Source: Nibricoccus aquaticus (GTDB lineage Bacteria; Verrucomicrobiota; Verrucomicrobiia; Opitutales; Opitutaceae). From it: a stretch of DNA of 64,000 nucleotides. Both the position numbers and the translations under genes were made by a program. Positions 28,559 to 31,806 of the stretch are shown in pieces. The DNA is taken from the NCBI RefSeq assembly GCF_002310495.1, contig NZ_CP023344.1, positions 1,240,001-1,304,000 of the forward strand, read 5' to 3'. Under the pieces are notes generated by a model. That model worked only from the letters and a program-made list of their open reading frames with translations, was not told where the DNA came from and did no database searches. Each line of letters begins with the position of its first letter. Within the stretch, counting starts at the first letter, position 1.

Positions 28559-28945
28559 TTACTTAGCGGGAGCGGTTGGCTTGGAGACGCCGACGGTGCG
28601 GCGGGGGCCTTTGCGCGTACGCGCATTGGTGCTGGTACGCTGACCGCGGACAGGGAGGCTGCGGCGGTGGCGGACGCCACGGTAGCAGTTGATCGCCTGG
28701 AGGCGCTTCAAGTTGCCGGTGAGTTCGCGGCGGAGATCGCCCTCAACCACCCATTTGTGCTCGGTGATGATGTGGAGGATCTTGTTGAGCTGTTCTTCCG
28801 TGAGCGCATCGGCGCGCTGGTTCGGATCGATACCGGCTTCTTGGACGACTTGGTCCGCGCGTTGCGGGCCAATGCCGTAAATATAACGGAGGGAGATCGC
28901 GACTTTCTTTTTCGCGGGGATTTCTACACCGAGGAGACGTGGCAT
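28559..28945 (-). CDS. rpsM: 30S ribosomal protein S13
   Basis: Head protein of the small subunit that bridges to the large subunit and contacts tRNA; 128 residues. Conserved features are the N-terminal [23 protein letters not shown], the GIDPNQRA-type segment and the C-terminal [18 protein letters not shown]. It follows map by 49 bp. The infA and rpmJ genes usually found before it are absent. Confidence 0.97.
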
Positions 28946-28994
28946 ATAGTTTCGAGTTAGGAGATGTTTGGTTGAGAGTGTGAGGAGCTGGCGG

Positions 28995-29813
28995 TTAACG
29001 CGCGGCCGAGGATTGAGTGGGCGCGGTGGAAAGTGTGGAGAGTGGCCGGGGAATCGTGAGAATCTCAGGGCCTTTATCTGTTGTTAGCACGGTGTGTTCG
29101 AAGTGCGCGGAGGGTGATCCGTCGGCGGTGACAACCGTCCAGCCGTCGCCGAGTGTCTTCGTCTTGTATCCGCCGAGATTTACCATCGGCTCGATGGCAA
29201 GGGTCATACCGGGCTTGATCTTATCACCTGAGTTACGGCGGCCGAAGTTCGGGATCTGCGGATCTTCGTGCATTGAAACGCCGACTCCGTGGCCAACCAT
29301 GTCGCGGACGACACTAAAGCCATGCTTCTCGACGTGGGTCTGAACCGCATGGGAGATGTCGCCAATGCGATTGCCGACGGTGGCTTGCTGAATGCCGAGA
29401 TCGAGGGCTTCGCGGCTGACGCGGAGGAGTTCTTCGATTCGTGGCGAGACAGAGCCGACAGGCATCGTGAAGGCGTTGTCGCCGATGTAGCCGTTGTAGT
29501 GGACGACGACGTCGAGCGAAACGATGTCTCCATCTTTCAGGATACGTTTCAGGGAGCCGATGCCGTGAACGACTTCGTCGTTGACGGAGATACAGGTGTA
29601 AGAGGGATACGCCGGATGACGCGGGCCGAGTTTATAGCCGTAACAGGCACTCCGGGCTCCGTACTGCTCGATCATATGTCGGGCAGCTTGATCCAAGTCG
29701 TAAGTAGAAATGCCGGGCTGAACCTTCGTCTTAAGAAGGTCCAAGACCGACGCGGCAACAGCACATGCTTCACGCATGCGGATGATCCCTTCTTTGTTTT
29801 TGATGGGGATCAT
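28995..29813 (-). CDS. map: Methionine aminopeptidase, type I
   Basis: Removes the N-terminal methionine from new proteins; cytosolic metalloenzyme. It has 272 residues, standard type I length. The metal ligands are in place: two Asp in [15 protein letters not shown], His in GHGVG, Glu in IEPMV and Glu in HFEHTVL. The ATG at 29813 directly follows the stop of the degenerate adk gene (one base between), so the two are translationally linked. The last 20 residues are a Ser/Thr/Pro-rich tail. Confidence 0.96.
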
Positions 29814-29814
29814 A

Positions 29815-30279
29815 TCAGGCCGCTAAAGCGCTGGTCTCAACAACTGTGAGACCGAGAGCGCGGTAATGATCGACGACGGCTTCAGATGACTGGTCCGCTG
29901 CGATAAGGCCGTGGAGGCTTTCGTCGCGGGCATCGAGCCATTCGTCGAATACTTTTGCTTGGAGCAGCGTAGCCGGGAATCCGCTTAGGGCGAAACCCGC
30001 ATCAGGTTTGCGCGTCCAGAACCAGCGGCGCATGAGCGCGAGCGTGGAATCTTCAGCGAGGGGTTTGCCCTGCTGAGCAAGTCGCTCGGCGGTGAGACCG
30101 AACGGCGTGCGGCGCGAAATCTCTTGTCGCAGAAGGCCGACAGGAGAGACGTGCTCAATATTCAAAGAACGGAGCTGATTCATTAAGTTTTCCGAGGAAG
30201 AACCGGGTGAACCAGCGATGACTATCTTGATTTTGGCGGGAGCGCCGAAATAAGAAAAGAGGTCGGAAATTGCAGCCAC
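29815..30279 (-). CDS. Degenerate adenylate kinase homologue (probably inactive)
   Basis: A 154-residue protein at the conserved adk position between secY and map. The fold is traceable: a P-loop-like GSPGSSSEN (23-31), a GLLRQEI NMP-binding helix (48-54) and an SGFPA strand (99-103). The catalytic residues are lost: the P-loop Lys is Ser29 and its Thr is Asn31, the DGFPR Asp and Arg are Ser99 and Ala103, and the LID domain with its arginines is missing because the gene stops 60 residues short. The reading frame is open from start to stop, so this is not a fresh pseudogene. It may be a structural or regulatory remnant; a true adk must lie elsewhere. Confidence 0.75.
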   Translation of the reverse strand: MAAISDLFSYFGAPAKIKIVIAGSPGSSSENLMNQLRSLNIEHVSPVGLLRQEISRRTPFGLTAERLAQQGKPLAEDSTLALMRRWFWTRKPDAGFALSGFPATLLQAKVFDEWLDARDESLHGLIAADQSSEAVVDHYRALGLTVVETSALAA

Positions 30280-30309
30280 CTAGACCGAAGTAAAGAACCA
30301 ATTAGGTGT

Positions 30310-31806
30310 TTAGAGAAACTTCGCTGCCCAGGCCGCGATACCGATGAGGAAGATCGTACCGAGAACAAGCCAGAGCTTGCCTACGGTCTTCATGTCAGCT
30401 GCTTCACCAATGGCACTGGCTGCGGAGGGATTACGGGCGCGGATGCGGCCTTTTTTGAGGAAGCCGTCATAGTGGCGCTGTAAAAGGAAGGTCTCGATCT
30501 GCTTCATCGTGTCGAGAATGACACCGACAGTAATCAACATACCGGTGCCTCCGAAGAAGACGGCGATGCGCTGAGGAACGGCGAGCTGGTGAAGGGCGAG
30601 GTCGGGCATGACCGCGATGAAGGTGAGGAAGATCGCGCCAGCGAGAGTCATGCGCGTCATGATGAAATCAAGGAAACTGGCGGTGGGTTCTCCGGGGCGA
30701 ACGCCAGGGATGTAGCCGCCGTATTTCTTAAGGTCATCGGCGATCTGGATCGGTTTGAACATAACCGAGACCCAAAAATAGCTGAAGAAGAGAATGAGAA
30801 ACGCCATGAATACGTAGTAAGCTAAGCGCCCATGAACGAGAATATTGGAGGCCTCGATCATCCATTTCCAATTCATCGCGGCACCTAGCCAGGAAAAGAT
30901 CTGCTGGGGGAAGAGAAGAATGGCGCTGGCGAAGATCACGGGCATGACGCCCGAGTAGTTAACTTTGAGCGGGAGAAACGAGCTTTGGCCGCCCATGACC
31001 TTATTGCCGACGACTCGCTTGGCATACTGAACCGGAATTTTGCGCTGACCTTGAACAACCATGATGATACCCATGGTGACCAAGATAAACAGGCCGATCA
31101 TGATAACGCCCTCAATAGGTCCGAGCTTGGCTACACCGATCGGAGCGAAGAAGAGATGGTAAGTCGCAGTCGCTGCACCAGGAATGTCGGCAAGAATACC
31201 AACTGTGATGAGGAGCGAGACACCGTTGCCGATTCCGCGTTGGGTTATTTGCTCACCGAGCCACATGAGGAGCATCGTGCCTGCAGTCATGAAAACGACT
31301 GAGGTGATCAAAAAGAGGGTGTGCGACGACTCGATGACAATCGGGCCGTAGGTATTTACATCATATCCGTTGAAAAGACGGGCTGGGTTTTCGAGGGTCG
31401 CGATCAATAGCGCACCTTGGATGACACAGATGATGACTGTGGCGTAGCGAGTGTACTGCGTGAGTTTTTGACGACCGACATCGCCTTCTTGCTGGAGACG
31501 GCTGAGGGCTGGGACAACAGCGGTCATCAGCTGGAAAATGATCGATGCGCTGATATAAGGCATGATGCCGAGCGCGCAGACTGCACCCTTCAAGAGGGCA
31601 CCGCCGGTAAACATATTATACAAACCAACCAACGCTCCGGTGCCAGCGGCTGTCTGGTCGGCGAAGAACTTTTGGAGCGGCTGCGGGTCGAGACCGGGAA
31701 GCGGGATGTGCGCGCCGACACGGGCGACGAACAGGAGGGCCAACGTGTAGAAAATGCGTGAGCGAAGCTCAGGAATTTTCAGCGAGTTCGTGAATGCGGA
31801 GAGCAC
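30310..31806 (-). CDS. secY: Preprotein translocase subunit SecY
   Basis: Central pore of the Sec translocon. It has 498 residues, longer than E. coli (443), with ten predicted membrane helices. Conserved parts are the N-terminal KIPELRSRIFYTLALLFVAR, the second-helix region GGALLKGAVCALGIMPYIS, the cytosolic loop GQRKIPVQYAKRVVG and GGYIPGVRPGEPT. It follows rplO after a 107-bp gap with a strong hairpin. Its partner SecE is encoded in the tuf region. Confidence 0.97.
   Translation of the reverse strand: MLSAFTNSLKIPELRSRIFYTLALLFVARVGAHIPLPGLDPQPLQKFFADQTAAGTGALVGLYNMFTGGALLKGAVCALGIMPYISASIIFQLMTAVVPALSRLQQEGDVGRQKLTQYTRYATVIICVIQGALLIATLENPARLFNGYDVNTYGPIVIESSHTLFLITSVVFMTAGTMLLMWLGEQITQRGIGNGVSLLITVGILADIPGAATATYHLFFAPIGVAKLGPIEGVIMIGLFILVTMGIIMVVQGQRKIPVQYAKRVVGNKVMGGQSSFLPLKVNYSGVMPVIFASAILLFPQQIFSWLGAAMNWKWMIEASNILVHGRLAYYVFMAFLILFFSYFWVSVMFKPIQIADDLKKYGGYIPGVRPGEPTASFLDFIMTRMTLAGAIFLTFIAVMPDLALHQLAVPQRIAVFFGGTGMLITVGVILDTMKQIETFLLQRHYDGFLKKGRIRARNPSAASAIGEAADMKTVGKLWLVLGTIFLIGIAAWAAKFL

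Follow-up and report, generated by a model that had tools for sequence, protein, structure and literature searches.

A relic of the adenylate kinase gene (pAdk) in the ribosomal-protein operon of Nibricoccus aquaticus carries, inside its reading frame, a stretch of about 160-220 nt that comparison among relatives shows to be conserved at the nucleotide level beyond the needs of the protein. In this genome the stretch (29958..30171, minus strand, the sense strand of the mRNA; 214 nt, pAdk codons 37-108) corresponds to an embedded, predicted structured RNA element, and it is highly probable that a sense RNA exists. The interpretation that we consider best, and to which we lean with some reserve, is that of a candidate structured mRNA element inside a translated adk relic coupled to map, which would lower the downstream flow. 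All positions refer to the window, the whole stretch of 64,000 nt of contig NZ_CP023344.1 that was analysed, unless a genome or locus is named.

The relic open reading frame (29815..30279, minus strand) starts with GTG, is intact and encodes 154 amino acids. The initial annotation had described a product at the adk place that keeps the Adk outline, has lost the P-loop Lys and Thr, the DGFPR Asp and Arg and the LID domain, and is separated from map by one base, and this description was borne out in full. The Pfam adenylate kinase model PF00406 matched residues 22-136 with 46.8 bits (cut-off 26.8); the P-loop GxxGxGKGT reads GSPGSSSEN, a segment that is variable among relatives; DGFPR reads SGFPA, with Ala in place of the Arg in 72 of 73 aligned relic rows (a set found with peptide seeds); and there was no match to the LID model PF05191 at E values up to 1, a domain present in the Adk of locus L113 (family f20). 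The C-terminal pAdk segment VVDHYRALGL resembles, in an alignment by eye, the post-LID segment PLADHYANLGL of the f20 Adk, suggesting that the LID was excised internally; the NMP domain is shortened in many members. The NCBIfam search of pAdk gave 20 matches (adenylate kinase and UMP/CMP kinase models), all far under their own cut-offs. Among PDB entries, a profile made from 33 relatives matched adenylate kinases (best E 3.2e-11), the AlphaFold model of pAdk has a mean pLDDT of 85.9, and all 50 of the Foldseek matches listed for this model were adenylate kinases. The comparisons thus show that the predicted product is an adenylate-kinase relic and, judged from its motifs, it is catalytically dead.

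A canonical adk elsewhere in the same genome had been proposed as a check. PF00406 matched the relic, one 410-aa kinase and one chance-level sequence (E 0.4), the 410-aa kinase being the sole match above the cut-off apart from the relic. This Adk-like kinase (G000:C1:1625637-1626866, outside the window; L002, L172) has a C-terminal extension of no assigned function. It carries GAPGAGKGT and DGFPRT, scores far under every NCBIfam Adk cut-off, and was matched in 118 of the 135 genomes of the order (87 at full length, 31 in the kinase part only); the 17 genomes without it are the 12 sampled f13 and the 5 f20 genomes. In all five f20 genomes an Adk with intact P-loop and DGFPRT adjoins secY (the order secY-adk-map was read in L113 and L116, and the LID domain was tested in L113), and in f13 a strong Adk match lies elsewhere in 11 of 12 genomes, one of these matches being truncated where a contig ends. 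The remaining f13 genome, G071 (single contig, 95% completeness), gave zero candidates when searched with PF00406, SecY and the 410-aa kinase; a masked or unreadable sequence may be the cause. We infer from these patterns that the 410-aa kinase seems to be a working Adk that replaces the canonical one. Another kinase probably assumed the Adk function of the locus. This takeover is not clean: among the 14 genomes of the family within the order sample, G012 and G103 additionally have a tandem double Adk. Such fused double Adks, open frames of about 380-500 aa with two tandem PF00406 matches, were found at G103:C1:2314945-2316000, G012:C22:169188-170480 and G064:C17:2963-4018, and also in f3 and f17 genomes.

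The relic is a family-wide feature. The relic profile matched 141 of the 171 family genomes at least 90% complete, 138 of them at E<1e-20, and the frame is open in 140 of the 141 distinct loci with the element, so that pAdk is not a chance product and the short form, whose conservation in relatives had been proposed as a check, is indeed kept. Three matches were weaker: G160 and G275, both at the locus (the latter frameshifted), and G244 (E 2.7e-8; place of the match not listed), which is possibly another Adk. The 30 misses comprise 12 genomes also without a SecY match, from whose assemblies the locus is therefore probably absent, 17 genomes from genera g82, g83, g88 and g89, and G155. Of these 17, the 15 read (L137-L151) all have secY followed directly by rpsM, without adk or map; a clade within the family has thus lost both genes from the operon. 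Other families contributed 20 stretches downstream of secY, all free of adk matches, the next gene being map in 19 and rpsM in one (f2).

Forms that depart from the core relic were found in four genera (g73, g75, g81 and g90), all with a P-loop-less Adk relic without the full RNA element, and some peptide role may therefore predate the RNA. G209 (g81) has lost the P-loop and keeps a LID-length insert with CxxC pairs, with no PF05191 match; the g73 relics retain GFPR, with neither P-loop nor LID; and those of g75 and g90 have diverged further. These forms are possible intermediates. In a FastTree phylogeny of rpsM+rpsK, which left out g73 and f20, the branches of g90 and then of g75 together with g81 come off below the core group, and the nodes connecting these genera with it have local supports of 0.902 and 0.995. 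At L136:273-977 there is an Adk without P-loop, with a LID-length insert and a P2-like hairpin in the coding sequence, possibly a living intermediate.

The strongest constraint at the locus is on nucleotides, and that on the peptide is weak. In a set of 79-81 genomes, columns with an amino acid at 90% or more and one codon at 97% or more amounted to 16 of 43 in pAdk, compared with 0 of 296 in secY, 1 of 122 in map and 2 of 84 in rpsM. Among 91 non-redundant loci, sites with a single codon include TCT (88/88), CAC (89/89), GTC (89/89), AAA (91/91), CCG (91/91), ACG (91/91), CTC (91/91) and others. Pooled over 22 pairs, pS was 0.037 in the pAdk blocks and 0.21-0.30 in the rest of pAdk, compared with 0.356 in secY, 0.350 in map and 0.249 in rpsM; in each of the 22 pairs pAdk had a lower maximum-likelihood dS than secY. 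The full set of frozen blocks is absent from the f20 and G209 genes. The seeds of the search for relatives included WFWTRKPD and QAKVFDEW, and the peptide conservation in L004-L075 is therefore biased; codon choice was unseeded, and the relic profile search added loci independently of these seeds.

The element lies between two conserved ends, and a search for both of them retrieved 189 loci, 141 of them distinct; among 110 aligned stretches its length is 163-220 nt. All of the following features are on the minus strand. The closing stem P1 is formed by a 5' strand (GAGCACGU, 30149..30156) that makes 8 pairs with a 3' strand (ACGyUGCUC, 29962..29970) with one bulged base, mostly a pyrimidine, the two halves being 178 nt apart in the window. 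P1 is followed by the hairpin P2 (30120..30147), with a UCUC..GAGA base and a variable, covarying interior, by a variable junction arm (30015..30112) made of former NMP-binding codons and shorter in many relatives, and by the stem-loop P4 (CGGG..CCCG, 29974..29999), whose inner stem covaries. Codon counts and alignment gave four conserved blocks (A1, A2, B1 and B2), of which three are placed here: A1 (CGUUCUUUGAAUnUUGAGCACGUCUCUCC, 30143..30171), B2 (UUCCCGGCUACGyUGCUCCAAG, 29958..29979) and B1 (aCGCGCAAACCyGAUGCGGG, 29996..30015), which spans a junction strand and the 5' side of P4. The blocks are near invariant in the 110 diverse sequences. Among the relic loci of the sets L004-L112 and L192-L271, the element is absent from four: the partial relics L071-L073, and L270 (g73). 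A diverged core copy was found in Ca. Didemnitutus mandela (L064:3085-3298), with substitutions in nearly invariant P1 and P4 positions. At the place of P2, L133 and L136 have, by eye, hairpins of different sequence.

From the comparison of these sequences, a junction is predicted in which P1 is an invariant closing stem of 8 bp, P2 a hairpin that covaries and P4 a stem-loop. Positions 29958-30171 alone fold as a four-way junction (MFE -81.3, z -2.17, with 5 of 200 shuffles as low), the MFE and centroid structures being the same. In the individual MFE structures of the 110 sequences P1 was present in 98, the base of P2 in 101, the base of P4 in 74 and all three in 66; in a control in which only the variable letters were shuffled (first 60 of the 110) the corresponding figures were 19 for P1, 16 for P2 and 5 for P4. 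RNAalifold, unprompted, recovered P1 and the bases of P2 and P4, with almost no covariation energy (-0.2) for the full alignment. Pairing was kept in 879 of 880 cells of P1, 7 of whose 8 pairs never vary, and in 439 of 440 cells of the P4 base; P1 is invariant and therefore covariation cannot test it, and the P4 base likewise hardly varies. All the changes on both sides with pairing kept fall in P2 (5 of 8 pairs) and in the inner P4 (3 of 3 pairs). They amount to 61 cells compared with 25.2 in shuffles, none of 500 shuffles reaching 61, in a control that leaves relatedness in. Overall, 94.5% of helix cells were paired, versus 32.8-61.0% when the partners were slid.

Other measures did not single out the element. 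Against synonymous-codon shuffles the mean MFE z was -1.72 for the element and -1.51 and -2.27 for the flanks, and the APC covariation ranking was dominated by non-helix pairs, probably from shared ancestry. Four further pairings were considered and are not claimed: P3 (UUUCGCG/CGCGcAAA), a weak helix that would close the variable arm 30015..30112 and was present in the MFE of 51 of the 110 sequences, with uncompensated breaks; a hairpin in codons 80-85; an alternative CCyG/CGGG hairpin (MFE of 20 of 110); and the GGU/ACC pairing given by RNAalifold (0 of 110).

Strong matches to the element were confined to the family and to the locus. A covariance model of it (R1), used across the phylum with strict filters that lose weak matches, matched 26 of 288 genomes at E values up to 0.01: 23 in this family, at the pAdk locus, and three weak, partial matches with E 0.003-0.007. 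There was one strong copy per genome, at the pAdk locus. In a second search with R1, on 30 chosen genomes, 27-41 bits were obtained at the adk place of G209, of two g73 genomes and of three f20 genomes, which we read as shared coding ancestry, and every further place listed had 19.5 bits or less. Rfam 15 gave, for 29700-30500 at E values up to 10, only a chance-level snR50 match on the opposite strand (E 5.9), and for the whole window, at the gathering score, two tRNAs only. Nothing relevant to a known function was found among the open-access matches listed, nor by a text search within PMC2864571.

Several identities were rejected. An overlapping gene did not fit, the other five frames being open over the blocks in 1-104 of the 141 loci and never in all; a displaced SRP RNA was set aside, the SRP RNA lying elsewhere in the genome. 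Mimicry of 16S rRNA by block B1 is not claimed: B1 agrees with the E. coli 16S at 15 of 17 positions (0 of 200 shuffles as good) and with two 16S sequences from element-carrying genomes at 13 of 17 (2 and 3 of 60 shuffles as good), several blocks having been tried.

The operon around the element encodes ribosomal proteins (spc/alpha), and the element is situated in its secY-map part. The preceding gene is secY (30310..31806, minus strand; PF00344 match in the same genome at G000:C1:1270505-1271581) and the next is map, encoding methionine aminopeptidase (28995..29813, minus strand), map being named from sequence and secY also by the SecY family search; rpsM, rpsK, rpsD, rpoA and rplQ downstream were named by eye. 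The pAdk stop and the map start are joined as TGA-T-ATG (29811..29817, minus strand), and in 94 of 107 loci, with some genomes counted twice, they overlap (ATGA in 74, TGATG in 20). This overlap, together with the open frame in nearly all loci, makes the coupling of pAdk and map translation very likely. The link of pAdk to SecY or Map seen here consists of gene order and this stop/start overlap alone. Between the pAdk start and the element there are 108 nt, and between its end and the map start about 145 nt. It covers neither ribosome-binding site, which argues against simple masking and is unusual for a translational operator; that it would be read by ribosomes also counts against the regulatory reading.

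We propose a mechanism in outline. The element would be a cis-acting RNA of the operon mRNA; ribosomes translating pAdk would be handed to map by translational coupling, and the folding of the junction, or the binding of a regulator to it, would lower the flow of ribosomes or transcripts into map and the downstream alpha-operon genes. A fold in the middle of a frame could affect the passage of ribosomes or the continuity of the transcript (processing, termination, antitermination), or could work by way of a bound protein. By analogy with these operons in E. coli, where such feedback has a precedent, the best guess for a regulator would be a ribosomal protein of the same operon, acting in feedback, a small molecule being less likely. 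The peptide would be weakly constrained and may merely keep the frame open, a minor protein role being compatible with the evidence. A former adk gene, its enzyme function taken over, would thus have become the carrier of a structured RNA. As a tentative history, to which we give a little less than even credence, a redundant enzyme gene lost the P-loop and then the LID, and its coding sequence was recast as a multi-stem regulatory RNA read through by ribosomes, with the protein as a frame-keeping passenger that preserves the translational coupling of map and the alpha ribosomal-protein operon.

The locus may instead be a dual-function gene, with an RNA element and a weakly constrained small protein, a plausible alternative that we nevertheless hold to be less probable than not; it overlaps the best explanation, and the likelihoods assigned to the different readings do not add up to one. 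Peptide constraint outside the blocks is present, though weak, alongside the RNA signal: codons 108-154 have a pN/pS of 0.44, and in 20 of 22 pairs pN is the lower of the two. Against it, two genomes manage without a recognisable protein. In G275, the sole frameshifted case among the 141 distinct element loci, the frame is broken between the blocks, with a stop inside block B1, and the blocks have 2, 0, 2 and 2 substitutions. G155 has an open frame, whose stop overlaps the map start as ATGA, and a peptide that is unrecognisable outside the blocks: identity to six relatives is 12-29 of 72-81 positions outside the blocks and 22-24 of 28-30 inside them, whereas the six relatives (two of them identical) share 61-69% among themselves outside the blocks. 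Two of the blocks of G155 (A2 and B1) are unchanged, B2 differs by 2 substitutions and A1 contains an insertion. The covariance model scored G275 at 118.5 bits and G155 at 80.1 bits, both being among its 110 building rows. Where the other sequences are at least 95% conserved (78 columns), G275 keeps 68 columns and G155 keeps 63; of 78 moderately conserved columns they keep 31 and 35 (median of the others, 57).

A conserved pseudo-enzyme, as the initial annotation had proposed, is rather unlikely to be the main explanation. On that reading, the core that Adk retains after the loss of P-loop and LID would be a folded adaptor for a partner (SecY, Map, the 410-aa kinase or a ribosomal protein), and the conserved blocks a side effect. 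Part of that proposal stands: the product is dead by sequence, the frame is kept family-wide, the AlphaFold model is good, and some selection acts on the peptide, 18 of 22 pairs having an omega below 1 with an LRT above 3.84 (the median omega of pAdk is 0.39, compared with 0.013 in secY, 0.051 in map and 0.027 in rpsM). The motifs RRWFxxRK and FDEWLxxR are conserved with partly varying codons and are similar in the full-length f20 Adk, and the relics without the full RNA in g73, g75, g81 and g90 also fit a protein role. The dN/dS check that had been suggested thus gave a divided answer, with the constraint on codons 108-154 on one side and, on the other, a pN/pS of 0.69, nearer neutral, in codons 2-36 (including the former P-loop) and the very low pS of the blocks. 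Selection on a peptide would not be expected to freeze synonymous codons, and an explanation by the peptide only was rejected as the main one: codons, and not residues alone, are frozen. Moreover, the blocks stay in G155, whose peptide diverged outside them, and are kept with few changes in G275, whose frame is lost; and 17 genomes with SecY, secY-rpsM in the 15 read, have no relic match.

It is quite improbable that the conserved stretch is a DNA or antisense element (a protein-binding site, a promoter or an antisense RNA) and not a sense RNA. Invariant blocks can be read as DNA and P1 is also a dyad, but the P1 halves are far apart and the interiors of the hairpins covary. In the varying helices G.U outnumbers A.C on the sense strand, 108 to 50, in related sequences whose counts are not independent, which favours the sense strand. 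In a simple consensus scan of 28900-30400 the minus strand had no sigma-70-like promoter, the single promoter-like site was weak and on the plus strand, and terminator-like sites were absent. That the gene is dead and simply decaying at random, with nothing retained by selection, a reading named beforehand as what would refute conservation of the product, is hardly credible: the G275 frameshift is real, the locus was lost in four genera, codons 2-36 are near neutral and omega 1 was not rejected in 4 of 22 pairs, but decay was not what the relatives displayed, with 140 of 141 frames open, near-invariant blocks and omega below 1 in most pairs.

If the tentative history outlined above is true, the element would represent a new RNA class, missed by intergenic searches, that controls the spc-alpha junction in the Opitutaceae, and the locus would be a case of an enzyme gene that shifted from a protein to an RNA function, with living intermediates. 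For conserved pseudo-enzymes in general, constraint at the nucleotide level should be checked before a protein role is proposed. A 2024 review states, in its accessible part, that spc regulation in species other than E. coli remains unknown (PMC10931766), and in the Verrucomicrobiota it would become directly accessible through a family-wide RNA at the spc/alpha junction.

With the canonical Adk (PF00406) in the order secY-adk-map, pAdk shares homology, fold and gene position, the full-length form being still there in f20; it differs in the loss of the P-loop Lys and Thr, of the DGFPR Asp and Arg and of the LID, and in the shortened NMP domain of many members. In E. coli the uS8 operator in the spc mRNA and the uS4 operator in the alpha operon mediate translational repression by ribosomal proteins, as described in the accessible part of PMC10931766. 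On that description, the pAdk element resembles them as a structured RNA in the same operon region with downstream translational coupling, whereas it lies inside a translated relic frame, far from both starts, with a ligand that is only putative and a mimicry of rRNA that is unsupported. The guanylate-kinase domain of the MAGUK proteins is, as far as the available parts of PMC4718807 and PMC3335814 describe it, likewise an NMP-kinase fold no longer catalytic and retained for another use; there the protein was reused for binding, whereas at pAdk it is the nucleotide sequence that is best kept. Finally, the candidate structured RNAs found in intergenic searches (PMC8723152, accessible part) are comparable in their comparative evidence, their several stems and their conserved junction strands; the pAdk element lies instead within an open reading frame, where such searches do not look.
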